In this document: in pieces, positions 2,192 through 24,275 of the stretch
How the letters are laid out: each line of letters begins with the position of its first letter
Position numbering within the stretch: position 1 is the first letter of the stretch
Source: a virus
Strand: one strand, 5' to 3'
IMG/VR virus record: IMGVR_UViG_3300031334_000450
Coordinates: 1-24,828 of that record
Length of the DNA: 24,828 nucleotides
Notes under the pieces: model-generated
Database searches by the model: none
Told to the model about the DNA's origin: nothing
The model's input: the letters and a program-made list of their open reading frames with translations, nothing else
Program-made: the position numbers and the translations under genes

Positions 2192-3223
2192 TCAGGGCCC
2201 ACTGGTCCATGCTTCGAACGCCCATCCCGAAAGCATGGATCCAACGCTGGCGAGCAAGAGATAGAGAAGGAATGGGCGAATTCGGAGCACCGGCGCGATA
2301 GCCATGGCACCCCATATGCTCACCACCCCGCCCGAGACGAGGAAGGCCATGGCGGCGCCCGGGGCCATGCCAGCCTCCATCAGCGCACGCGTCAACGGCA
2401 GCGCCGCGTAGCCGTCGATATAGGCTGGCGCTCCGACCAGGACGGCGAGCGGCACCGCGAAGGCGTTGCCGGCCCCGACGTAAGATGACAACGCATCGGG
2501 TGCCAGTGTTTCATTGAGCGCATACTCGGCGGCAAAGGCAGGAATCAGAACGATCAGAATTAAGCGGGTAACCGACCACGCCTCGCGTCCGAAGCGGGCG
2601 CGGCGCGCAGGTTCGGTCCAGATTGCGGCGTGGAAGCTCGCGTTTTCGATGCCGCATGGCTGTCCCAGAGATCCGGTAATGCGGTTGCGCCGCAGCGGGT
2701 CGCGCGTCCACCCGGTCCTCTCCAAGGCCGCCGTTGCAAGTCCACCGAAGATCCCCAGGCCGATGGCCGCGATCATCTTTCCCACAGCGAATTCCCAGCC
2801 CAGTGTCGCGGCGGTCGCCGCAAACATTGGCGGGCCGGTGACAGGCGATGACAGCCAGAACGCCATCACCGGCGCGAGCGGTACACCCGCGGCTAGCAGA
2901 CCGGCCATCAACGGCAGAACGGTGATGCCGCAGACCGGGATCAGAGCACCGACACCAGCCGCCAGAAAGACGGCCAATATCCTCTGTCCCTCAATGATAT
3001 CGGCAACACGGTCGCTTGCGCCGCTCGCCGCGATCCACGCCGCGAGCAGAATGCCGGGGATCACGATCGGGGTCACATTGATCAGACCGGCAAAGACAAA
3101 GCGCGCTGTCGCCAAAGCATGATCGGGCGCCAGAAAGACGGCTGCTCCGAGACCCGAAATCAGAGCGAGATAGGCGAGCCGCACCCAAGGCGAGCCACCA
3201 TGAACTGCTTGCGAAATATTCAT
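2192..3223 (-). CDS. Permease of the ArsP/YraQ type (COG0701-like)
   Basis: A 343-residue integral membrane protein with about eight hydrophobic segments. Two family-like inverted elements are visible: GALIPVCGITVLPLMAGLLA followed by FWLSSPVTGPPMFAATAATL in the first half, and GAPAYIDGYAALPLTRALME followed by FLVSGGVVSIWGAMA in the second. Members of this permease family (PF03773) include ArsP, which exports organoarsenicals, and metal-related exporters; the substrate here cannot be read from sequence. I chose the ATG at 3223 because the longer frame upstream runs through the DUF1127 gene region and lacks membrane-protein character. It lies 82 nt downstream of the DUF1127 gene on the same strand, in a bacterial cassette inside the phage late operon, and converges on DUF6441. 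Confidence 0.8.
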   Translation of the reverse strand: MNISQAVHGGSPWVRLAYLALISGLGAAVFLAPDHALATARFVFAGLINVTPIVIPGILLAAWIAASGASDRVADIIEGQRILAVFLAAGVGALIPVCGITVLPLMAGLLAAGVPLAPVMAFWLSSPVTGPPMFAATAATLGWEFAVGKMIAAIGLGIFGGLATAALERTGWTRDPLRRNRITGSLGQPCGIENASFHAAIWTEPARRARFGREAWSVTRLILIVLIPAFAAEYALNETLAPDALSSYVGAGNAFAVPLAVLVGAPAYIDGYAALPLTRALMEAGMAPGAAMAFLVSGGVVSIWGAMAIAPVLRIRPFLLYLLLASVGSMLSGWAFEAWTSGP

Positions 3224-3305
3224 CTTGTCTGTCTCCGTTCCAGTTAGATGATGAGGCGAGACGGTCGAGGGATGCCGCCACCCACGGCAGGACCGGTAAC
3301 GCGCT

Positions 3306-3605
3306 TCATCGTCCAAGCCGCTGATACCGATCCAAGAAACCCCGTTGCGCTTCGCGTAGAACATCGCGGTCTTGCAGAACGTCGCGGCGTTCGAGACCGA
3401 TATCCGCAAGGAGGTGATCGTTGAGGCCTCGCAGGGCCCTCCGGAGTCGCGCGAGGCGACGCTTCTCGTCAATCTTTTTGAAAAACCCTGCGATGGCGCG
3501 GCGCACGGGCTCCGGGGAGTTGGGGACATCGTGATGATCGATATGCGGTTCGATGGCCGGCACCCGGCAGGCTGTCCTGTGATCATGGCTGTGGATAGAG
3601 AGCAT
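3306..3605 (-). CDS. DUF1127 domain small protein
   Basis: A 99-residue basic protein. Residues about 48-75 (RRLARLRRALRGLNDHLLAD, then IGLERRDV) match the short DUF1127/YjiS-like domain, an arginine-rich helix pair ending in a D-IGL-R-D/E motif. Alphaproteobacterial members of this family have been linked to RNA binding and to stress or phosphate responses; nothing here fixes the role. The N-terminus is His-rich (HSHDHRTA and HIDHHD), which is unusual and could bind metal. The ATG at 3605 has a strong GAGGAGG site 8 nt upstream. It is the first gene of a minus-strand pair with the permease and is divergent from the LysR gene. Confidence 0.72.
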   Translation of the reverse strand: MLSIHSHDHRTACRVPAIEPHIDHHDVPNSPEPVRRAIAGFFKKIDEKRRLARLRRALRGLNDHLLADIGLERRDVLQDRDVLREAQRGFLDRYQRLGR

Positions 3606-3707
3606 GACAAAGCCTCCTCAAGATGTTGCTGATGTCTGACTGTAAGATGCAACCTTGAAAGGAATTTGAGAAACGGGCAGTTTAGAAATCAGCAATCGGT
3701 ATTTCAA
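3606..3707. promoter_or_regulatory. Divergent promoter region between DUF1127/permease and lysR
   Basis: This 102-nt gap separates a LysR-type regulator (plus) from the DUF1127-permease pair (minus), the classic arrangement in which the regulator binds the shared region and controls its divergent target. It is visibly more AT-rich than its surroundings (for example the stretch 3655-3710 with TTGAAAGGAATTTGAGAAAC). I see no convincing T-N11-A operator or paired -35/-10 boxes by eye, so the regulatory role is inferred from layout. Confidence 0.45.
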
Positions 3708-4571
3708 ATGGCTCAGCTTGACAGCGACCTTCTCAGAACATTCCTCGCTATCGTGGAGACCGGCAGCGTCACGGGCGGCGCGGAACGCATCCACCGCTCC
3801 CAATCGGCGACGAGCCTGCAACTGAAGCAGCTCGAAGAGGTAGTCGGCGAGCCGCTCGTCGCGCGGCACGGCCGGGGCGTGGTCCCGACGCCGGCGGGAG
3901 ACCGCCTCCTGCCAGTCGCGCGGCAGGTCACCGGAATGCTCGACGCGGCTCTGGCCAGCTTCCGCACCGATGATCTGATCGGCCGGCTTCGTATCGGGAT
4001 CGCGGAAGATGCAGCGCGAGAGGTGCTTGCCAACGTTCTGGCCGCCTTCTGCCGCGACCATCCGCGGATGGAGCTGGAGGTGCATTGCGCTCTCGGGGAT
4101 GGGTTCGGCGACTCGCTGGCGCGCGGCAAACTGGATATGGCTGTCTACGAGAGTTCGGCGATCGGCCCCGGTCAGGAACGGCTGCGCACGGGGCGCCTTC
4201 AATGGACTGCGTCACGCCACCATGATGCGGCGCGCCGCGACCCGCTGCCGGTGGCTGTTTTCGACCGCTCATGCTGGTGGCGGGACGTCGCGCTCGCCGA
4301 TCTTTCGGCTGCAGACCGTGCGTATCGTACGGTGTTCACCAGCGAGAACGCATCGGGTGTGCGCGCCGCCGTCGTGTCCGGCATGGCGGTCGCGCTGATG
4401 AGCGAAAGCGAGGCAGACGAAGACTTGGTTGCACTTACGGACATTGCACCGCCACGACCTTCCTATCTGGTCCTCGTTGTGGCGCCGCGGGCGCGCGGAG
4501 CGGCTATGGAGGCGCTGTCCGAAGCTATTCGAAATGCGTTGAAGGAAGAAAACAGGCCCGTCGGCTTCTGA
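3708..4571 (+). CDS. LysR family transcriptional regulator
   Basis: A 287-residue LysR-type regulator. The N-terminal winged helix-turn-helix (residues about 4-62) is clear: LDSDLLRTFLAIVETGSVTG, SQSATSLQLKQLEEVVGEPL, and PTPAGDRLLPVAR. The rest is a periplasmic-binding-protein-like effector domain (LRIGIAEDAAREVLANVLAA, MELEVHCALGDGFGDSLARG). I chose the ATG at 3708 (MAQLDSDLL) over the upstream TTG at 3666 because it gives the usual LysR N-terminus. It probably controls the divergent DUF1127-permease pair, sensing a small ligand that cannot be identified here. Its TGA is followed after one base by the ATG of a broken tail-gene copy, so the cassette joins the phage DNA with almost no spacer. 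Confidence 0.9.
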   Translation: MAQLDSDLLRTFLAIVETGSVTGGAERIHRSQSATSLQLKQLEEVVGEPLVARHGRGVVPTPAGDRLLPVARQVTGMLDAALASFRTDDLIGRLRIGIAEDAAREVLANVLAAFCRDHPRMELEVHCALGDGFGDSLARGKLDMAVYESSAIGPGQERLRTGRLQWTASRHHDAARRDPLPVAVFDRSCWWRDVALADLSAADRAYRTVFTSENASGVRAAVVSGMAVALMSESEADEDLVALTDIAPPRPSYLVLVVAPRARGAAMEALSEAIRNALKEENRPVGF

Positions 4572-4572
4572 A

Positions 4573-4887
4573 ATGCCCACACCACGCGAAACCATCCTAA
4601 CCGCGCTGCACGCGCGGCTCTCGGCACTTCCGGCGACCACTTTGCGCGGCGAAGTCCTGCCCGAGCGTGTGCCGGCTGCTGGCTTGCTGATTCTGCGCGA
4701 CGGCGAGTCGGGGGAGCCCGAAGAGACGCTTTCGCCGATCATTTACCACACCGGCCCTTCGCCGAGAAAGAGGCGGTTGTGCAGGGCCCCGCCCGACGCC
4801 GCTTTCGACACTCTAACCGGGAGCATCAACGCATCTCGGTCGGGACCGGCGCGTGCGACACTTCATCGTTCGCAACCGCGCCCGTAA
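4573..4887 (+). pseudogene. Broken second copy of the tail-terminator-like gene
   Basis: The first 55 residues (beginning MPTPRETILTALHARLSA) align with the intact gene at 4919: by eye about 33 of 55 positions are identical, including RETIL, LPER, ILRDG and TLSP. After TLSP (about 4737) the similarity moves to another frame (AEKEAVVQGP, matching VEIEAFMPPG), then returns to the first frame at PDAAFDTL and fades near 4830. This indicates two compensating indels plus loss of the C-terminal half, so the gene is decayed. The divergence from the intact copy is too high for a recent tandem duplication. It starts immediately after lysR and may mark the recombination event that brought in the cassette. 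Confidence 0.75.
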
Positions 4888-4918
4888 CCCTCGTGCGCCC
4901 AGCCACCGGAGCCCCTCC

Positions 4919-5344
4919 ATGCCCTCGACTCGCGAGACGATCCTTGCTGCGCTGACAGCGCAGCTGACCGCGCGCGCCGGCGCCGAGGTGCGGCGCAACG
5001 CGACGCTGCCCGAACGGGCGCCGGCGGAAGGACTGGTGATCCTGCGCGACGGCACTCCGGGCGAACCGGATGTGACGCTGAGCCCGTGGCGGGCCTATTA
5101 CCGCCACCGCGTGGAGATCGAGGCGTTCATGCCGCCGGGCGCGGCGGAGGCGGCGCTCGACGCGCTCATCGCCCGGATCGGGGCCGCGCTGGCGCATGAC
5201 GACAGCCTCGGCGGGCGCGTCGAGCTGATGACGGTTTCCGCGCCTGAACTGCAGCCCGTCCCGGTGGAGGGCGGCGCGCCGTTTCTGGCGGCGGCACTTG
5301 CGGTCACGCTGGAATACGAGGTCAGCGATCCGCTGAGCGGCTGA
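4919..5344 (+). CDS. Tail terminator-like protein (lambda gpU position)
   Basis: A 141-residue protein placed between the neck genes and the tail tube gene, where lambda gpU/HK97 tail terminator proteins are encoded. It has an N-terminal helix (RETILAALTAQLTARAG), a beta strand pair (GLVILRDGTPGEPDVTLSPW, then YYRHRVEIEAF), a second helix (AEAALDALIARIGAALA) and a final strand (PFLAAALAVTLEYEV). This alpha/beta order fits the gpU fold, which caps the tube and fixes tail length. The call is by position and secondary structure rather than a recognised family signature. The ATG at 4919 has GGAG 7 nt upstream; the longer frame from 4853 has no such site. A decayed homologue lies just upstream. 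Confidence 0.6.
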   Translation: MPSTRETILAALTAQLTARAGAEVRRNATLPERAPAEGLVILRDGTPGEPDVTLSPWRAYYRHRVEIEAFMPPGAAEAALDALIARIGAALAHDDSLGGRVELMTVSAPELQPVPVEGGAPFLAAALAVTLEYEVSDPLSG

Positions 5345-5404: not shown

Positions 5405-6676
5405 ATGGGCAAGCAACGCGCCTATGGCGCCGATGCCACACTCAGGGCGGTGCGCGAGACGCAGTATGGCGGGGCCACCACGGGCCCGGTGCGGGCGCTC
5501 GATTTCAAGACGGCGGATCTGTCGGCGAGTATTCCGCTTGGCGACGACCCGCTTCTGGGGCGCGGGCGCAATGCGCAGGACCCGTATCGCGGGCTGGTCA
5601 CCGATGAGGGCCAGCTGGAGATCCCGTTCGATCTGCAGGGTACCGGCTGGTGGATGACCGCGCTCTTCGGCGATCCCGAGACCACGCCGCAGGCGGCCAC
5701 GGGGCAAATCACCTTTGCGGATAATCCCGCGCCGGGCGACACGCTCACGCTGAACGGGGTGATGTGGACCTTTATGGCAGCGTCTGCTGCGGGCGACGAG
5801 ACGGAAATCGGCGCCACGCTGGCAGATACGCTTGCCGCACTTGCCGCGGATCTCAACGCCGCCACCGATCCCGTCATCGCCGTGGCGACCTATGCCGTGG
5901 AAGACGACACGGCGCTGCTGATCACCCATGACACCCCCGGCCCGGACGGCAACGCGTTCGCGATTGCCGCCTCGGCCGCGCAGCGTTCCGCCCCCACGCT
6001 CACCGGCGGCGGGTACCGCCATGTCTGGCGCAGCGGGGCCGACAGCATCCCGTCCTTCCTGATCGAGATCGGCCATCCCAAGCTCACCACCCCGGTCTTC
6101 TTTCGCCATGCGGGGGCGGTGCTGGAAGAGCTGTCGTTCCAGATGGGCCAGGAGGGGCCGGCCAATGCCACCGTCTCGGTGGTCGCCCAAGGCGAAGAGA
6201 CCGCGAATGCCACGCTGGACGCAAACCCCGCCGCCTTTGCGCTGCGCCGCTTCAGCCAGGGGCGCGGGCGCATCGTGCGCGCGGGAGCGCCGCTGGCGGG
6301 GGTCACCGCAGGCTCTCTGACCTTCTCCAACGGCATCGAACGGGTGCGGTCCATTCGCGAGGATGGCCGCATCGATGGCGCGGATCCCACCCTCGCCACC
6401 TGCGAGGGCTCGCTGAACGTGCGCTTCGATGGGGAGACGCTGATGGCCGAGGCCGCGAGCGGCGATCCGGTGGCGCTGGTCTACGGCTTTGCGATGCATG
6501 AGGGCTACGCGCTCAGCTTCACCCTGCCGCGGGTCTACCTGCCCAAGCCCAAATATTCGATCACCGGCCCCGCCGGGGTCGAGGCAAGCTTCGACTGGCG
6601 CGCCGCCGCCGATGCGACCGGCGTGATGCTCGAGGTCGCCCTTCTCAACGATATCCCGACCCATGGAGACCCCTGA
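5405..6676 (+). CDS. Phage tail tube protein with an inserted extra domain
   Basis: A 423-residue major tail subunit, which polymerises into the tube for DNA passage. The N-terminus (GKQRAYGADATLRAVRETQY, FKTADLSASIPLGDDPLLGR) and the later segments (IPFDLQGTGWWMTALFGDPE, YRHVWRSGADSIPSFLIEIG, EELSFQMGQEGPANATVSVV) are typical of Phage_tube_2-type tail tubes. Residues about 95-198 form a separate alpha/beta module (GDTLTLNGVMWTFMAA, IGATLADTLAALAADLNAAT, PDGNAFAIAASA) that interrupts the tube domain and is probably displayed outside. The ATG at 5405 follows AGGAGA with good spacing. The stop TGA overlaps the next start (TGATG). Confidence 0.85.
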   Translation: MGKQRAYGADATLRAVRETQYGGATTGPVRALDFKTADLSASIPLGDDPLLGRGRNAQDPYRGLVTDEGQLEIPFDLQGTGWWMTALFGDPETTPQAATGQITFADNPAPGDTLTLNGVMWTFMAASAAGDETEIGATLADTLAALAADLNAATDPVIAVATYAVEDDTALLITHDTPGPDGNAFAIAASAAQRSAPTLTGGGYRHVWRSGADSIPSFLIEIGHPKLTTPVFFRHAGAVLEELSFQMGQEGPANATVSVVAQGEETANATLDANPAAFALRRFSQGRGRIVRAGAPLAGVTAGSLTFSNGIERVRSIREDGRIDGADPTLATCEGSLNVRFDGETLMAEAASGDPVALVYGFAMHEGYALSFTLPRVYLPKPKYSITGPAGVEASFDWRAAADATGVMLEVALLNDIPTHGDP

Positions 6677-7125
6677 TGATCCGCCTCGACCTGAACGCGT
6701 CCCCCGACTGGCTCGATCTCGGCCACGGCGTGCAGCTGCGCGTCGCGCCCATAACCACCTCCCTGATGAACCGTGCCCGCGAGGAGCCGATCCTCGCCGA
6801 CCTGCCGGAGGAGGCCAGCGCCAACCGGCGCGGCATCGCGCTCGCGAAGGCGCTGGCCCGTGTGGCTGTCGATGACTGGGCGGGCGTGCATGACGAGACC
6901 GACGCGCCGGCCGAACTTTCGCCCGAAGGGCTCGACGCGCTGCTGGAGATCGTACCGATCTTCGAGGCGTTCCAGCTGCGTTACGTGGCGCCGGGCCTGC
7001 ATCTGGAACAGGAAAAAAACGCCTCAGCGCCCTTGCCGAGTGGCACTTCGGCGGGGGCGACGGGTACTGCAAAAACTGCACCCAAATCTGCGACGCCTGC
7101 CCGGCGCGGCAAAACGCGCCGCTGA
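6676..7125 (+). CDS. Tail assembly chaperone, frame-0 product (lambda gpG-like)
   Basis: A 149-residue protein encoded between the tail tube and the tape measure, where siphophages encode the G/GT tail assembly chaperones. These bind the tape measure and recruit tube subunits and are absent from the virion. Residues 1-115 look like a genuine folded domain (MIRLDLNASPDWLDLGHGVQ, LAKALARVAVDDWAGV, LLEIVPIFEAFQLRYVAPGL). The last 34 residues after the slippery site (ASAPLPSGTSAGATGTAKTA and onward) are low-complexity. The start overlaps the tube gene stop (TGATG). No family name is certain; the call rests on position and on the frameshift signal at 7014-7059. Confidence 0.7.
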   Translation: MIRLDLNASPDWLDLGHGVQLRVAPITTSLMNRAREEPILADLPEEASANRRGIALAKALARVAVDDWAGVHDETDAPAELSPEGLDALLEIVPIFEAFQLRYVAPGLHLEQEKNASAPLPSGTSAGATGTAKTAPKSATPARRGKTRR

Positions 7126-7343
7126 CGCGCGAGGGCGCGATGGCCTGGGATATCGCATGCCGGGCCACAGGCCAGCTGCGGGTCGCGGACGGCGCAGTGC
7201 TCGGCTGGGATATGGGCGCGGTGCTGGCCATGGCTGCGGCCGGCGGACTCGACCCGAGGGCGGCGGTGGAGCTTCTGCCGGTGATCGAGGCGGCGATGGT
7301 GCGCGCGGTGAACGCCCAGATCCGGGCGCAGCGCCCGCAATAG
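6676..7343 (+). CDS. Tail assembly chaperone, -1 frameshift fusion (lambda gpGT-like)
   Basis: Joined reading of 6676-7020 in frame 0 and 7020-7343 in frame -1, about 222 residues. The ribosome would slip at A AAA AAC (7014-7020) and continue with CGC at 7020. The -1 frame is open from 6876 to the TAG at 7341-7343, and reads as a sensible protein from the slip point: RLSALAEWHFGGGDGYC, a CX2CX3CX2C cluster, then MAWDIACRATGQLRVADGAV and a helical end. The only ATG in this frame near the ORF (7140) has no good ribosome site and would leave out the conserved-looking segment before it. In lambda the same arrangement makes gpG and gpGT in a fixed ratio. Whether the Cys cluster binds zinc is unknown. 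Confidence 0.7.
7014..7059 (+). promoter_or_regulatory. Programmed -1 ribosomal frameshift signal
   Basis: The codons GAA AAA AAC (7012-7020) contain the heptamer A AAA AAC in the correct X XXY YYZ phase. Seven nucleotides later a stem begins: 7028-7040 pairs with 7047-7059 without a bulge (13 pairs, three of them G-U) around a 6-nt loop at 7041-7046. Slippery heptamer, spacer of about 5-9 nt and stable hairpin are the three elements of known -1 frameshift sites. The run of seven As (7013-7019) might also allow transcriptional slippage. Confidence 0.75.
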
Positions 7344-7413: not shown

Positions 7414-9966
7414 ATGACCAGCGCGTCCAAACAGGTGACGGTGCGGCTGGCGGCAGAAGGCGGCCGGCAGGTGCGCGCCGAGCTCAGGGGGATCGGCACC
7501 GACGGCGCCACCGCCTTCCAGCGTCTGGGCTCGGAGATGGAGGCCGCCAATGCGCGTGCCGACCGGTTCTTCCGCCGGCTGCGGATTGCGGCGGCGGCTG
7601 GAGCTGCAGCCGTGGGCGCGGCGGCCACGGCGATGATCCGCAGCGGGCTGCAGGTCGTCGACAGCCAGGCCAAGCTGGCGCAGTCGCTGGGCACCACCGT
7701 CGCCTCGATCCAGACGCTGGAGCGCGCGGGCGAACTGGCGGGCGTGTCGATGTCGGGCATCGAGCAGGCCACCAAGGATCTCACGCGCCGTCTCAGCCAG
7801 GCCGCGGCCGGGACCGGCCCCGCCGCCGACGCGCTGGACCGGCTGGGGCTGTCGGTCACCGACCTGATCGCGCTGCCGCTCGATGAGCGCGTCGGGGCCA
7901 TCAACGCCGCCATCGAGAAGTTCGTGCCGGCGGCCGAGCGTGCGGCCGTGGCGGGCCAGCTTTTCGGCGAGGAAGGCTCGATCGCCATGGGTCGGATCGA
8001 CAGCGCCACGCTGCGCCAGGCGACGAAGGACGTGCGCGCCTTCGGCGTCGTGGTGTCCGCGCAGGACGCGGCACAGATCGAACGGACCAACGATGCGATC
8101 TCACGGCTGGGGCTCATCTGGCGCGGTCTGGCCAACCAGCTGGCGGTGGCCGTGGCCCCCGCTCTGGAGGCCGTGGCCGACGCAATGGCCGCGCTCGCGG
8201 AACGCAGCGGTCCGATGGGCCGCGCCATCGAGCTGGTGCTGGGCAATCTCGACCGGCTGGCCGCCACGCTCGCGGCGGTTGCCGGTCTGGTGGCCGGGCG
8301 CTTTGTGGCCGGGCTGGCAGTGGCAGCTGTCAGCGTGCGCGGGCTGGCCACGGCGTTGGCGCTGTTGCGCGGGGCGCTGATCCGGCTGCCGTTTGTGGCG
8401 CTCGTGATCGGCGCGCAGGAGCTGATCCTGCGCTTCGGCCGGCTGGTCGCGGCGGCAGGAAGTTTCTCCGACGCCCTCGATCTCATGCGCGGCGTGGCCG
8501 CAGAGGTCTGGGACCGGATGGGCACAGGCGCACGGGCGCTCGGCGCGACGATCGCCGCAGCCTGGGCCGGGATCCAGGCCAGCGTGGCCGGCGGCGTGCA
8601 GGCCAGCCTGGACGCTGTCGCGCGCGGCGCCTCGCTTATCGTCAACACCTGGCGCGGGGCTTTTGCAGCAACACGCGCGATCTGGTCCGATCTGCCGGCA
8701 GTGCTGGGCGAGGTCGTGACCGGTGCGGCCAATGCCATGGTGCGCGGCGTGGAGCGAATGCTGAACGCGGTGATCGGGCGCGTGAACCGCTTCATCGCGG
8801 GGATCAACACGGTGCTTGGCGCATTGCCGGCATGGGCCGTGGGCGATGGCGGGCTGCGCATCGGCGCGCTGGACGATGTCAGCCTTGGCGGTATCGAGGC
8901 CCGGTTCGCAGGCGCGGCGCGTGATGCCGGCGGCCGGGCGGCGGAGGCGTTCACGCGAGGATTCGAGCGGGAGTACCGCATCCCCGATCTCGGGCTCGGC
9001 GCCTATGCCGAGGAGGCCCGCGCGACGCAGGACGCGCTCCAAGGCGTGGCCGACGAACTGCGCGCCGCGGCGACCGGCCCACTGGAGTCGGTCGAGGCGA
9101 TCCGCGAGGTGCTGGCGCGGACCTCGAAGGTGGCCGATGCGTCAGCGGACTCCGTGGCCGGGATCGGGGACGCCTTCGACGGGATCGCCGGCGGGGAGGA
9201 TGGGAGCTTCGGCACAAGTTCCGGCAGCGGGGGCGCGGCGGGGCGCGCAACCAACGCGGCCACGGAGGCCGGCAACGCGATCGCGGCGGCCGGCGAGACG
9301 GCGGCGCGGGGCTGGGATGCGGTCGCCGACAGCCTGCAGGACTATGCCGACAGCGCGATGGAGACCGGCCGGCAGATCGGCGAGGCGCTGGTCAGCGCGT
9401 TTCGCGGGGCCGAGGACGCGCTTCTGACGCTGGTCACGAAGGGCAAGGTGGATTTCCGCGATCTGGCGAACTCGATCCTGGAGGACATCACCCGCATCGC
9501 GCTGCGCTCGGCGGTGCTCGGGCCGCTCGCCAACTGGCTGGGCGGCGCGCTCGGCGGGATCGGAGGCGGGCTTGGAGGCAGCTTGGGCGGCAGCCTCACC
9601 GCGGCGGTGGCGCATTCCGGCGGCGTGATCGGCGTCTCGGCACTGCCGCATCGCGAGGTGCCGGCCATGGCCTTCGCCGGAGCACCCCGACTGCATGCGG
9701 GTGGCATGGTCGGGCTCCAACGCAGTTCTGGCGTTGCGGGCCTGCGGCCCGACGAGGTCCCCGCGATCCTGCAACTCGGCGAGCGGGTGCTGTCGCGCCG
9801 CGAGGTCGCCGAGGGGCAGCGCGGCGGCGGTGGCAGCGGCCGTGACGGCGGTGTCACAATCAACATGAGCATCTCCACGCCGGATGCCGACAGCTTCCGC
9901 CGGTCGCAGGGCCAGATCACCGCCGAGATGAGCCGCGCCATCGCGCGGGCGCGGCGCAATCGGTAG
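7414..9966 (+). CDS. Phage tail tape measure protein
   Basis: An 850-residue tape measure protein that sets tail length and leaves the tube ahead of the DNA. The N-terminus (TSASKQVTVRLAAEGGRQVR, then a coiled-coil region and AAAAGAAAVGAAATAM) is typical. The middle has hydrophobic segments (residues about 280-345, TLAAVAGLVAGRFVAGLAVA) that could insert in the host membrane. Residues about 642-710 match the lambda gpH C-terminal domain (DYADSAMETGRQIGEALVSA, LVTKGKVDFRDLANSILEDI, RIALRSAVLGPLANWLGGAL). At roughly 1.5 angstrom per residue the tail would be near 125 nm, an estimate from the general rule. The ATG at 7414 follows GAGGG. It is the last phage gene before the second accessory cassette. 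Confidence 0.93.
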   Translation: MTSASKQVTVRLAAEGGRQVRAELRGIGTDGATAFQRLGSEMEAANARADRFFRRLRIAAAAGAAAVGAAATAMIRSGLQVVDSQAKLAQSLGTTVASIQTLERAGELAGVSMSGIEQATKDLTRRLSQAAAGTGPAADALDRLGLSVTDLIALPLDERVGAINAAIEKFVPAAERAAVAGQLFGEEGSIAMGRIDSATLRQATKDVRAFGVVVSAQDAAQIERTNDAISRLGLIWRGLANQLAVAVAPALEAVADAMAALAERSGPMGRAIELVLGNLDRLAATLAAVAGLVAGRFVAGLAVAAVSVRGLATALALLRGALIRLPFVALVIGAQELILRFGRLVAAAGSFSDALDLMRGVAAEVWDRMGTGARALGATIAAAWAGIQASVAGGVQASLDAVARGASLIVNTWRGAFAATRAIWSDLPAVLGEVVTGAANAMVRGVERMLNAVIGRVNRFIAGINTVLGALPAWAVGDGGLRIGALDDVSLGGIEARFAGAARDAGGRAAEAFTRGFEREYRIPDLGLGAYAEEARATQDALQGVADELRAAATGPLESVEAIREVLARTSKVADASADSVAGIGDAFDGIAGGEDGSFGTSSGSGGAAGRATNAATEAGNAIAAAGETAARGWDAVADSLQDYADSAMETGRQIGEALVSAFRGAEDALLTLVTKGKVDFRDLANSILEDITRIALRSAVLGPLANWLGGALGGIGGGLGGSLGGSLTAAVAHSGGVIGVSALPHREVPAMAFAGAPRLHAGGMVGLQRSSGVAGLRPDEVPAILQLGERVLSRREVAEGQRGGGGSGRDGGVTINMSISTPDADSFRRSQGQITAEMSRAIARARRNR

Positions 9967-10504: not shown

Positions 10505-10969
10505 CTACCTCGATCGCATCCCGTAGGTTTCTCGGCTGCGCCTTATGTGTTCATCGGCATCCCGTTCAGGGAAGAACCGCCAGCTTGGAGCGAGTATGGG
10601 CACGGTCTTTTCGACGCGGACCTCTATCACGTTCCTGATCGGAAAATCGGGACCGGCCTTCTCCCGCAGAGGAGGGACAAGAGCTTCGAACCTCGATGCC
10701 CCGTCCTCGATTATTTCGGCTGCTCCGATTAGCTTGTGCCCTCGCTCCCGAAAGACGTCTATCAAACTGACGCAGACGCGCGGATGCGTCTGGATCGCCC
10801 GGATCGAACCGGCCGAGGCGATGTCGGCGATCACGAAGCTGTCCCCTTCGTGATGCCATATCTCCTTTGGAGAAACGCTTGGCTGTCCCTTCCGATCTAC
10901 GGTCGCCAACCAGCAGAGCACGGCATGGCGGCAGGTGTCCGCGACGGTCCATTCCGCGTCTTCGCTCAT
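10505..10969 (-). CDS. Pyridoxamine 5'-phosphate oxidase family flavoprotein
   Basis: A 154-residue protein of the PNPOx-like split-barrel family, which usually binds FMN or a related cofactor (F420, heme). The core is visible: HAVLCWLATVDRKGQPSVSP then KEIWHHEGDSFVIADIAS, SAGSIRAIQTHPRVCVSLID, and GHKLIGAAEIIEDG. Proteins of this size are generally not true PdxH enzymes; the substrate is unknown. The C-terminus (APSWRFFPERDADEHIRRSR) is typical of short members. The start lies 12 nt after the LysE stop, so the two are very likely one minus-strand operon. A weak AGGA/GAGGA element precedes the ATG. Confidence 0.8.
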   Translation of the reverse strand: MSEDAEWTVADTCRHAVLCWLATVDRKGQPSVSPKEIWHHEGDSFVIADIASAGSIRAIQTHPRVCVSLIDVFRERGHKLIGAAEIIEDGASRFEALVPPLREKAGPDFPIRNVIEVRVEKTVPILAPSWRFFPERDADEHIRRSRETYGMRSR

Positions 10970-10981
10970 TTCCTACTATCC

Positions 10982-11623
10982 TCAGTTTCGGGCCATTGCC
11001 AGCTTGGTGCCGAAGACCACCAGAACGACGCCTATCACACGCTCGATCCACGCGCCCGCACGAACGTAGACGGCTCGTGCCGGGACGCTCGACAGAAGCG
11101 AGACAACGAGACCATACCAAACAACCTCGACAGCGAAGGACGCTGCAAGGATCGTAGTCTTCGTGAGCAAGGCTGCATCCGGCGGGACAGCAACGGCATA
11201 AAGACCAACGAAAAACATGATCCCCTTGGGGTTGGAAAGATTTACTATGCCGCCGATCCTGAAACCGCGCAGGAAGGCTAAAGTCCGGTGCTGGTCGGTT
11301 CCGTTAGCATCTGTTCCCTCGTTCTGAGCGGCCGTCCCGGCATGACGCCACGATTGAATGCCGAGCCATACCAGATACAGGCCGCCAGCGATTTGAACGG
11401 CGCGCGTTAGCCAACCGATGCGTTCGAGTATGACCGACAGTCCGGCTATCGCCAGCACCGCACAAAACGTCGCCGCACAGGCCAGGCCAAGCGTTGCTCC
11501 CCACGCCGTAGTCTTCTCTCCGCGCAGGGCCAACTTCGAGATCAGAGCGAAGTTGGGACCGGGGCTGACCACAATAGCGATGTAGAGAACCAGAACGGTC
11601 AGAACGATGTGGGGATCAAACAT
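10982..11623 (-). CDS. LysE/RhtB family exporter
   Basis: A 213-residue membrane protein of the LysE translocator family, which exports amino acids and related metabolites. The family signature SPGPNFALISKLALRGEKTT (residues about 20-39) follows the first membrane segment, and there are about six hydrophobic segments, with the conserved NLSNPKGIMFFVGLYAVAVP near residue 130. The ATG at 11623 has GGAGG 8 nt upstream; that ribosome site lies in a possible hairpin. It is first in a two-gene operon with the PNPOx-like gene, antisense to the phage late operon. Substrate cannot be assigned. Confidence 0.88.
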   Translation of the reverse strand: MFDPHIVLTVLVLYIAIVVSPGPNFALISKLALRGEKTTAWGATLGLACAATFCAVLAIAGLSVILERIGWLTRAVQIAGGLYLVWLGIQSWRHAGTAAQNEGTDANGTDQHRTLAFLRGFRIGGIVNLSNPKGIMFFVGLYAVAVPPDAALLTKTTILAASFAVEVVWYGLVVSLLSSVPARAVYVRAGAWIERVIGVVLVVFGTKLAMARN

Positions 11624-21524: not shown

Positions 21525-21698
21525 TTCGGGTCTCCCAGCATCATCGTGGCCACTTCGGCCCTTTCAGAAGAATCCTCCCTGTCCGCGCGTCGGTCAAGTG
21601 GTTCCAAACCCGAGCGCGCCGGGTATCGACCCCAAGTTTGCGAAAATTGGCCCAAAATGGTAGGGTTAACGCATTGTCCAAAACATGGGAGGTCAGAA

Positions 21699-22631
21699 AT
21701 GCAACCTTTCGGAGGAGCCGCGTTCCAACGTAAGGCGCGTGCCGGGTTTGCGATCGCGGTGATCGTGGCGGCCAGCGATGCGGCGGCCATCTCAATCAGT
21801 CTGACGGAGAAACCGGAAGGCGAGCCGCTAAATCTGTTCGGGATTCCCGGAAATAATGCCGGGCCCGCCCCGGCATCAGTGACCGGAGGCGGCACGCTCT
21901 CACAGGTCATGTCCGCCGCGGCGAATTACTGGGAAGGAGTCTTTCTCGATTCCGGTCCTGCCCTCGATATCGACTACGGCTGGCGGTCGCTTTCATCCGA
22001 TACCACGCTTGCCACCGCGCTGGATTTCCAGACCCGGGATTTCGGGCCTCCGGATGCCAAGCGGGGGATCATCACCTTCAACAATACAGAGACGGCGTTC
22101 ACCTACTACGCCGATCCAAACCCGACAATGGCCGAGGATTTTGACACCTATTTTCAGACGACGGCGGAGCTCGGCGGCGGCGAGATGAATACGGGGCGAG
22201 TTTTTACCGACAGGACCGGACCCGCAGCAGGCGCATTCGACCTGTTCTCGATCGCCGTTCACGAGATGGGCCACCTCCTTGGACTGGATGACATCGACAC
22301 GGACGCCAATCCGCTGGAAATCACCTCGGGACCTTATGCTGGGGCGAGTATCGCGACGCTATTCGAAACCGAGGGTCATCTGGACGGGTCTGCGTATCCC
22401 TATTCCCTGATGCAACGCGCCGCCAACGGTGATCGTCGCCTGGCGAGCGATGTGGACATAGCCGCAATCGCCGAACTCAGCGGTTTTAACGATGTCGATT
22501 ACGGTGCAGCCAATTTAACCATGGCACCTGTTCCACTGCAGCCTGCGGCGGCGCTGCTGGCCGGCGCTATCGGCCTGATGGTCATGATCAGAGGCAACGC
22601 TGGGCGAGCGCATCGTGAGAGAGCCGCCTGA
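21699..22631 (+). CDS. Secreted matrixin-like zinc metalloprotease with C-terminal sorting segment
   Basis: A 310-residue protein. A signal peptide is likely at residues 1-30 (FQRKARAGFAIAVIVAASDA). The zinc motif IAVHEMGHLLGLDD gives H188, E189 and H192, with D198 where matrixins usually have a third His (HExxHxxGxxD, as in snapalysin-type enzymes). A Met-turn candidate is SLMQRA. The C-terminus (APVPLQPAAALLAGAIGLMV then a basic end) resembles the VPLPA-CTERM sorting signal of Rhodobacteraceae: a V-P-L-P-like motif, a TM segment and basic residues, so the protein may be cell-envelope sorted. I chose ATG 21699 because GGGAGG lies 6 nt upstream; the upstream part of the frame has no protein character. 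Probably host-encoded. Confidence 0.75.
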   Translation: MQPFGGAAFQRKARAGFAIAVIVAASDAAAISISLTEKPEGEPLNLFGIPGNNAGPAPASVTGGGTLSQVMSAAANYWEGVFLDSGPALDIDYGWRSLSSDTTLATALDFQTRDFGPPDAKRGIITFNNTETAFTYYADPNPTMAEDFDTYFQTTAELGGGEMNTGRVFTDRTGPAAGAFDLFSIAVHEMGHLLGLDDIDTDANPLEITSGPYAGASIATLFETEGHLDGSAYPYSLMQRAANGDRRLASDVDIAAIAELSGFNDVDYGAANLTMAPVPLQPAAALLAGAIGLMVMIRGNAGRAHRERAA

Positions 22632-22880
22632 CACGGACGTCCAACCCGCTCGTTCTGCTTGTTGTTCTCCGTTGCAGACCGGAAGCCACGTCGGATGGAA
22701 CCAGCAGCTTGTCATGCAGTCGCGCGAGGAGCGCCTCGATCAAGCCCGGAGGTTGAAGCCGAACCGGCGCAAGTGGCTGCCGCTCGACATTCAGCCATGG
22801 GCAAGAACAAGGTGTGGAAGCGTGAACGCGGATTGTGAATGATGAGTATTTCACCCGCTCACCTGGGGGAAAACGCTACT
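22632..22880. other. Intergenic region, no recognised feature
   Basis: This 249-nt gap lies between the convergent metalloprotease and exonuclease I genes. Open frames cross it on both strands (for example minus 22854-22588), but none has a ribosome site or a motif I recognise. No clear terminator hairpin with a T-run is seen. Confidence 0.4.
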
Positions 22881-24275
22881 TCAGTCCATGGATGATGCGG
22901 AAAGCCGAGAGACATACCCGGCAAGGAAATCCGCCAATTCGGCCGCGCGCGCACCTTCGAGCTCGCGCGATGCCTGAACCTCGTTCAGCGCGCGCTGGGC
23001 CTTGTCTATGGTCATCCATCCGGTCTCTTGCGTATCGGGTGCGGACCAGCGCTCGCACAGCCATGCCTCAAACTGCGTCCGCTCCTCGGGCGAGAGTAGC
23101 TCGGGCGCGTGAAACGCCACCAGGCGGCGGCCAAGCTGGCGTAGGCGGGCATCTTCGAGGGTGTCCAGGATCTCGCTACGGCGCCGCCAGTCCACGCGCT
23201 GAAATTCGGCAAGCAGGGCCTTGTCGGCATGGCTGTAGAACCCGCCGAAGATCTGCTTCTCCACTGGGGGTGTCGGTGCCGCAGGCTCCTCGGGGAACCG
23301 CGCGGCCAGCGCCTGTGCCACGCGCGCGCGGAAGTCGGGTGCGGATGCTATGACCTCCGTGCGCTGAGCCTGCACGACGGTGGGCTCTGGCACCGACAGC
23401 AGCGCAGGGGATTTGTTCACAGCGAGTGTGCGAATGATCTTCGGCGTGGCGTCCGCCGCGGCGAAGATTGTTGCGTCATCGGCGGCCAGATAATCGGCGG
23501 GATCTGCTGCATCCAGATCAAAGAAGGCCGCCTGATTGGGGTTGCCGGCCGAATAGCCACAAAAACAGCCGATCGTTGCACGGGGCATACCGCCGCCAAA
23601 GCGTTCGACCAGCGCCAAGGGCTGGAATGCCTCAAGGCGGGTCTGCACATGCCTCTTGTCGCGATTGCTCTGCAGCTCGGCCCACAGCGCCGGGGCGCGC
23701 TGGGCAATCAGCCGCGCAATATGGATGGTCGCCGCGACATCGCCGAGCGCATCATGCGCATTGTGAGCGGTAAAGCCATTCAGCGGCGCGACCATGTCGA
23801 GCTTGAAGCGCACACGACCGGACGCGTCGACGGGCCAGTGAAACAGGTCCGGGTGGCGGTGCCAGACGGTATAAAGCGCCGTCAGCACATCAAAGCGCGT
23901 ATTCCCGTTGAACTGGGTGGCAAAAACGTCGGGCTGCAGGTTCTGGTAGAAGGCCTGACGCAGCATTTCCTCATCGAAACGAATGCTGTTGAACCCGGTC
24001 CAGACAGCCGGCGACCAGCGGTCGATCAGGGCGCCGATATCCTGCGTGAACTCGAACAGCGTCGGCAGGGCCGGGTCGAACAGCTGTTCCGGGCGAACGC
24101 CAGTCACCGCCAGCGCCCACGGCGACGGGATGATATGCGGCGCAATCCGGCAGCGCAGATCGACCCGCTCGATCTCCCTGAATGCATCATCCGTCAGGAT
24201 GGCCGCGAATTGCAGGGGCTGATCGAAGGCGGGCGAGGTGCCGGTGGTCTCGAGATCGTAGAATGCAAATGCCAT
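22881..24275 (-). CDS. sbcB: Exodeoxyribonuclease I
   Basis: A 464-residue protein of the exonuclease I family, a 3'-5' single-strand DNA exonuclease in recombination and mismatch repair (E. coli ExoI is 475 aa). DEDDh catalytic residues are visible at the expected offsets: D7 and E9 in YDLETTGTSPAFDQ, D101 in GFNSIRFDEEMLRQAFYQN, and H174 and D179 in HNAHDALGDVAATIHIARL. The family-typical GFTAHNAHDAL segment, the SH3-like middle (residues about 200-330) and the C-terminal helical domain (FGGFYSHADKALLAEFQRVD, FHAPELLSPEERTQFEAWLC) are all present, so it looks complete. The ATG at 24275 is the only reasonable start. Likely host gene; it lies next to a RecD2-like helicase gene. Confidence 0.92.
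   Translation of the reverse strand: MAFAFYDLETTGTSPAFDQPLQFAAILTDDAFREIERVDLRCRIAPHIIPSPWALAVTGVRPEQLFDPALPTLFEFTQDIGALIDRWSPAVWTGFNSIRFDEEMLRQAFYQNLQPDVFATQFNGNTRFDVLTALYTVWHRHPDLFHWPVDASGRVRFKLDMVAPLNGFTAHNAHDALGDVAATIHIARLIAQRAPALWAELQSNRDKRHVQTRLEAFQPLALVERFGGGMPRATIGCFCGYSAGNPNQAAFFDLDAADPADYLAADDATIFAAADATPKIIRTLAVNKSPALLSVPEPTVVQAQRTEVIASAPDFRARVAQALAARFPEEPAAPTPPVEKQIFGGFYSHADKALLAEFQRVDWRRRSEILDTLEDARLRQLGRRLVAFHAPELLSPEERTQFEAWLCERWSAPDTQETGWMTIDKAQRALNEVQASRELEGARAAELADFLAGYVSRLSASSMD

Follow-up and report, generated by a model that had tools for sequence, protein, structure and literature searches.

Evidence for a programmed −1 ribosomal frameshift in the tail assembly chaperone gene of an alphaproteobacterial prophage

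Introduction

Production of two forms of a tail assembly chaperone by −1 frameshifting is a textbook mechanism, known from lambda and many tailed phages. The locus considered here lies in a 24,828-base virus record (IMGVR_UViG_3300031334_000450, positions 1 to 24,828; ‘the window’), in which a short tail gene is overlapped near its 3′ end by a second open frame in the −1 register. How is this second frame, which we call T, entered by ribosomes: from the upstream frame, G, or from a start of its own? The original prediction, made from the letters alone, was of a complete −1 signal of the lambda G/GT type. We compared the locus with its relatives to see how this prediction and its alternatives fare.

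Results

The chaperone locus and its setting

The window is a siphovirus-like alphaproteobacterial prophage. Along the + strand, the tail tube gene is followed by the chaperone gene, the two sharing one base of stop and start codon (6676), and then by the gene for the tape measure protein, the expected partner of a G/GT chaperone (Table 1). The interval between the major tail gene and the tape measure gene is where a gene of the G/GT type belongs. The match of G to phrog_313 places the frame-0 product in a tail assembly chaperone family, and a Pfam profile search with G matched no family. Its AlphaFold2 model is confident (pLDDT 89). Residues 1–115 precede the slip site and the remaining 34 form a tail rich in A, S, P, T and R.

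Table 1. Features of the chaperone locus, and run-length variants among its relatives
Feature	Position in window, or loci	Strand	Basis
Tail tube (major tail) protein gene	5405–6676	+	Pfam Phage_tube_2, E 7e-44
Frame-0 tail assembly chaperone G, 149 aa	6676–7125	+	phrog_313 tail assembly chaperone, E 6e-15
Slippery heptamer A AAA AAC	7014–7020	+	In phase with ORF 6676–7125
Spacer, 7 nt	7021–7027	+	Sequence; equal length in relatives (alignment A2)
Stimulatory hairpin (candidate), 5′ arm	7028–7040	+	Fold; pairing kept; synonymous recoding
Stimulatory hairpin (candidate), 3′ arm	7047–7059	+	As for 5′ arm
−1 frame T domain, 107 aa + stop	7020–7343	+	DUF7697 and phrog_11212 matches; invariant Cys4 motif; fold
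Tape measure protein gene	7414–9966	+	phrog_8462, E 1e-146; Tape_meas_lam_C
A8 variants	L045/L358, L226, L227/L357, L356, L359, L360, L361		
A6 variants with T in the +1 frame	L362–L365, L367, L368		

Several other features of the window were recorded. An ArsP-type permease and a LysR regulator (2192–4571), likely cargo or host DNA, separate a minor tail gene (DUF6441) from the genes preceding the tail tube. Two neighbouring ORFs (4573–4887 and 4853–5344) have similar N-termini (PRETILTAL and TRETILAAL), and the first seems to be a shortened copy of the second. A PNPOx-like protein and a LysE-type exporter are encoded on the minus strand (10505–11623) between the tape measure and distal tail genes. 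At the right end (21546–24275), a Matrixin-like metalloprotease gene and an exonuclease I-like gene suggest the prophage edge in host DNA.

The slip site and the predicted fusion

The heptamer had been predicted to be in the phase required for −1 slippage, and the codons GAA (7012–7014), AAA (7015–7017) and AAC (7018–7020) bear this out; the A run itself covers 7013–7019, with C at 7020. The 7-nt spacer and a T frame open from the slip site to a TAG at 7341–7343 are likewise as predicted. AAAAAAC occurs once in the window, both strands counted, where 0.38 occurrences are expected, and 33 of 100 shuffles contained at least one copy. Its presence by itself is not significant, whereas its phase, place and conservation are, and the case therefore rests on comparison.

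Joining the 115 residues of G to the 107 of T gives the predicted length of 222 residues for the fusion. The junction needed amendment: the original prediction had QEKN/KRLSALAEW, but canonical tandem slippage gives ...LEQEKN|RLSALAEWH..., and under slippage in the P site only, a K before R would take the place of N rather than come after it.

Conservation of the slip site

T relatives are encoded by 563 stretches of IMG/VR and by at least 573 from bacterial genomes. From each set we kept the 80 best, mostly from Rhodobacterales, and combined them with annotated phages to give 128 distinct sequences. In 127 of these a canonical heptamer lies at the same codon and in the same phase (A AAA AAC in 121, G GGA AAC in five and A AAA AAA in one), and the sole exception adjoins masked N bases.

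The first genome scan carried an ascertainment bias, as one search pattern sat on the slip-proximal peptide. This was countered by a second search with the C-terminal DUF7697 model alone, which is independent of the slip region. Among 62 loci chosen in this way (the best matches plus fetched weak ones, a selected rather than random sample), 58 have the canonical in-phase heptamer followed by a T start of the RLxALAEW type, a count that includes two loci with an A8 run (L226 and L227). The remaining four appear to be decayed, rearranged or truncated: the site in L218 is altered and a cysteine is lost, L228 is a fusion produced by rearrangement, and no T sequence can be recognised upstream in L235 and L181. 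A conserved, in-phase X XXY YYZ heptamer near the end of G is thus found, as in G/GT-type genes. No intact homologue lacked the heptamer or kept two independent ORFs, the arrangements that the original prediction had set against itself.

A distant, unannotated human faecal phage contig (MT836000.1; L007) carries A AAA AAC with a shorter hairpin of different stem sequence.

The expected 0.38 occurrences would leave room for a coincidence, in which a chance run of A's and a hairpin imposed by codon choice happen to fall in a high-GC overlap. Conservation in hundreds of relatives, exchange of the heptamer among slippery classes, the change in selected frame and the synonymous recoding controls described below all speak against this. 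We regard the comparative data as refuting it, and the probability left to it as negligible.

Run-length variants and transcriptional slippage

Run lengths in IMG/VR, counted with a fixed downstream pattern, were A7 in at least 120 stretches, A8 in six and A6 in seven. In all six A8 copies G and T are fused in frame, making the −1 shift unneeded, and one genome has two different A8 copies (L226 and L227). Six of the seven A6 copies have T shifted to +1 with respect to G; the seventh retains A AAA AAC owing to a preceding GGA codon. These variants may be homopolymer mutations, dead prophages or sequencing errors.

The A8 copies show how a single added A would join the two frames, and the same could be achieved in the window by transcriptional slippage, some mRNAs gaining one A in the run of seven with no ribosomal shift. 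Seven A's is, however, a short run for polymerase slippage. Relatives with G GGA AAC have the same arrangement with a longest run of three, and a conserved hairpin at a fixed 7-nt spacing suits a ribosomal signal. Because A AAA AAC interchanges with a heptamer that has no long homopolymer, we favour ribosomal over transcriptional slippage, which we consider improbable.

Selection changes frame at the slip site

Across 86 representatives, pN/pS in frame 0 was 0.50 upstream of the slip site and 1.09 downstream of it; for frame −1 the values were 1.44 upstream and 0.42 downstream. Purifying selection therefore acts on frame 0 before the slip site and on frame −1 after it.

T could nevertheless be translated separately, from an internal start codon coupled to the G stop. 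There is an ATG at 7140 of the window, T is given as its own short CDS from residue 41 in Nostoc and Synechococcus phage records, and RcGTA has two overlapping ORFs. Yet none of the 86 representatives has an ATG, GTG or TTG in T codons 0–16, although residues 1–34 hold an invariant motif, and in 68 of the 86 the first 45 T codons include none. In 14 of them a T-frame stop lies no more than 18 codons upstream, with no start between. Few stretches of T are as well conserved as its slip-proximal part, which includes the four-cysteine motif described below; together with the lack of a start, this means that T must be entered from G here. A selected −1 frame with no start of its own is what a G/GT-type gene has, and the comparative data (heptamer conservation, start-codon absence and the DUF7697-selected loci) led us to reject independent initiation as highly improbable.

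The T domain

DUF7697 matches T residues 56–104 (E 8e-22). The Pfam model, which begins near residue 55, leaves the N-terminal half of the real T domain uncovered. In that half, just past the hairpin, lie four cysteines (CxxCxxxCxxC; residues 17, 20, 24 and 27, window 7068–7100) that are invariant in nearly all T domains (alignment A4) and could possibly form a metal site.

The AlphaFold2 model of T is confident (pLDDT 92.7), and its matches in BFVD reach a probability of 1.00 and a TM score of 0.61 (best E 0.007, others weaker). The modelled fold resembles those of phage tape-measure chaperones: predicted chaperones of T1-like phages (F20; TM 0.61, probability 1.00) and, at lower scores, those of Loki and CcrSC. 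The likeness, at modest E-values, is of the kind looked for in the extension of a tape-measure chaperone. Fold searches of the PDB matched neither the G model nor the T model, and sequence searches of the PDB with G and T gave nothing useful.

The downstream hairpin

The predicted 13-bp hairpin is the minimum free energy fold of 7021–7090 (−31.6 kcal/mol, z −2.7, equalled by three of 200 shuffles); it includes every one of the 13 pairs, of which three are G·U. Across 86 sequences, 93.7% of the pair cells hold standard pairs, compared with 42–58% when partners are slid. Native folds are also stronger than those of synonymous recodings that draw on the family's own codon usage (mean z −2.5, p < 0.05 in 83% of sequences), and five control windows in the same gene gave z of +0.2 to −0.5. 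Consistent with this, pS is 0.27 in the hairpin codons and 0.53 in the codons just after. Two checks proposed with the original prediction, conservation of heptamer and hairpin and synonymous constraint, came out in its favour.

Compensatory changes are few, three cells in two pairs, and do not clearly exceed those in shuffles; what supports the hairpin is its pairing and the synonymous constraint, rather than covariation. The U·G pairs of the window's mid-stem are U-A pairs in RcKemmy. Some constraint on this region could come from the overlapping frame 0 itself, but little is expected because its pN/pS is near 1. Judged by eye, no convincing downstream pseudoknot was seen.

Discussion

Gene order, the phrog_313 match, conservation of the site, the switch of selected frame, the absence of an alternative start and the modelled T fold give strong support to a programmed −1 ribosomal frameshift in a tail assembly chaperone gene of the lambda G/GT type, carried by an alphaproteobacterial prophage, a reading to which we assign a probability of about 0.96. 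Published work agrees with it (PMC4882933, PMC8601537, PMC3556154, PMC5009743).

Ribosomes would translate G in frame 0 from 6676 and, in a fraction of passages over A AAA AAC, the Lys and Asn tRNAs would re-pair one base back, presumably aided by the hairpin 7 nt downstream, which may raise the efficiency of the shift. Non-shifted ribosomes would end at 7125, giving abundant G, and shifted ones would reach 7343, giving GT. On E. coli ribosomes A_AAA_AAC is a weaker shift site than A_AAA_AAG (PMC5009743). By analogy with lambda (PMC5009743), G and GT would form a coat on the tape measure protein, with T bringing in tail tube subunits. A speculative extension, which we think rather unlikely, is that in a large alphaproteobacterial prophage lineage the Asn-ending heptamer and strictly placed hairpin together set the G:GT ratio, the rare A8 and A6 members being free of the −1 shift and either reaching the ratio by another route or having a dead tail.

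As regards annotation, DUF7697 appears to represent the C-terminal part of a protein made by frameshifting. Automatic calling from an internal start loses the N-terminal half of T, with its four-cysteine motif. The expectation that gene calling would miss the shift was right for the Nostoc and Synechococcus phage records and wrong for the Rhodobacter phages, whose joined CDS shows that the frameshift is already recognised in this gene's family. The gene offers a clean, conserved test case for downstream RNA structure tuning frameshifting outside E. coli.

The nearest comparison by tail type is RcGTA, whose gp10 and gp10.1 occupy the same place in the tail module. In its distal tail the window has genes of RcGTA-type families, with matches to TIGR02217 and TIGR02218 that pass the cut-off and one to TIGR02219 that does not, and the description of the prophage as GTA-tailed holds for this part of the tail only. 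The RcGTA chaperone genes differ: they belong to PF11836 (Phage_TAC_11) and PF09550 (Phage_TAC_6), neither of which matched G or T of the window in Pfam searches, and form two overlapping ORFs in the GTA locus (L169) with no need of a frameshift.

By slip site, the window resembles the Caulobacter phage phiCbK, with A AAA AAC in the pre-tape-measure chaperone genes gp93/gp94 (Colossus has G GGA AAC; PMC3556154), and Acinetobacter phage Loki gp12/gp13, also with A AAA AAC (PMC5313236). The modelled T fold resembles those of the Loki and CcrSC chaperones, at low scores for CcrSC, and we found no sequence-level match between the phiCbK and Loki chaperones and that of the window. Both heptamers are known g-t shift sites in the archaeal viruses HCTV-1 and HCTV-2 (PMC5009743).

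In lambda, G/GT is made by a −1 shift at G GGA AAG (Levin 1993 and Xu 2004, as reviewed in PMC5009743). The two systems share the interval between tail tube and tape measure genes and a short chaperone with a −1 extended form, but differ in the heptamer, in the sequences of both domains and in the strong, conserved downstream hairpin of the window. Lambda is not known to require such a hairpin.

The closest relatives are phages of the Rhodobacter RcC cluster (RcKemmy gp15/gp16, RcOceanus gp14/gp15 and RcKai), which have a homologous T (∼50% identity) and the same gene order. Most of the R. capsulatus phages described in PMC8601537 are reported to have the chaperone frameshift, RcZahn being an exception. 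RcC phages differ from the window in having a longer T tail, in the G GGA AAC heptamer of RcKemmy and RcOceanus, and in having been isolated by plaque, the window being a prophage contig; they share with it the codon at which the slip occurs and the position of the hairpin, and their GT is annotated as a joined CDS.
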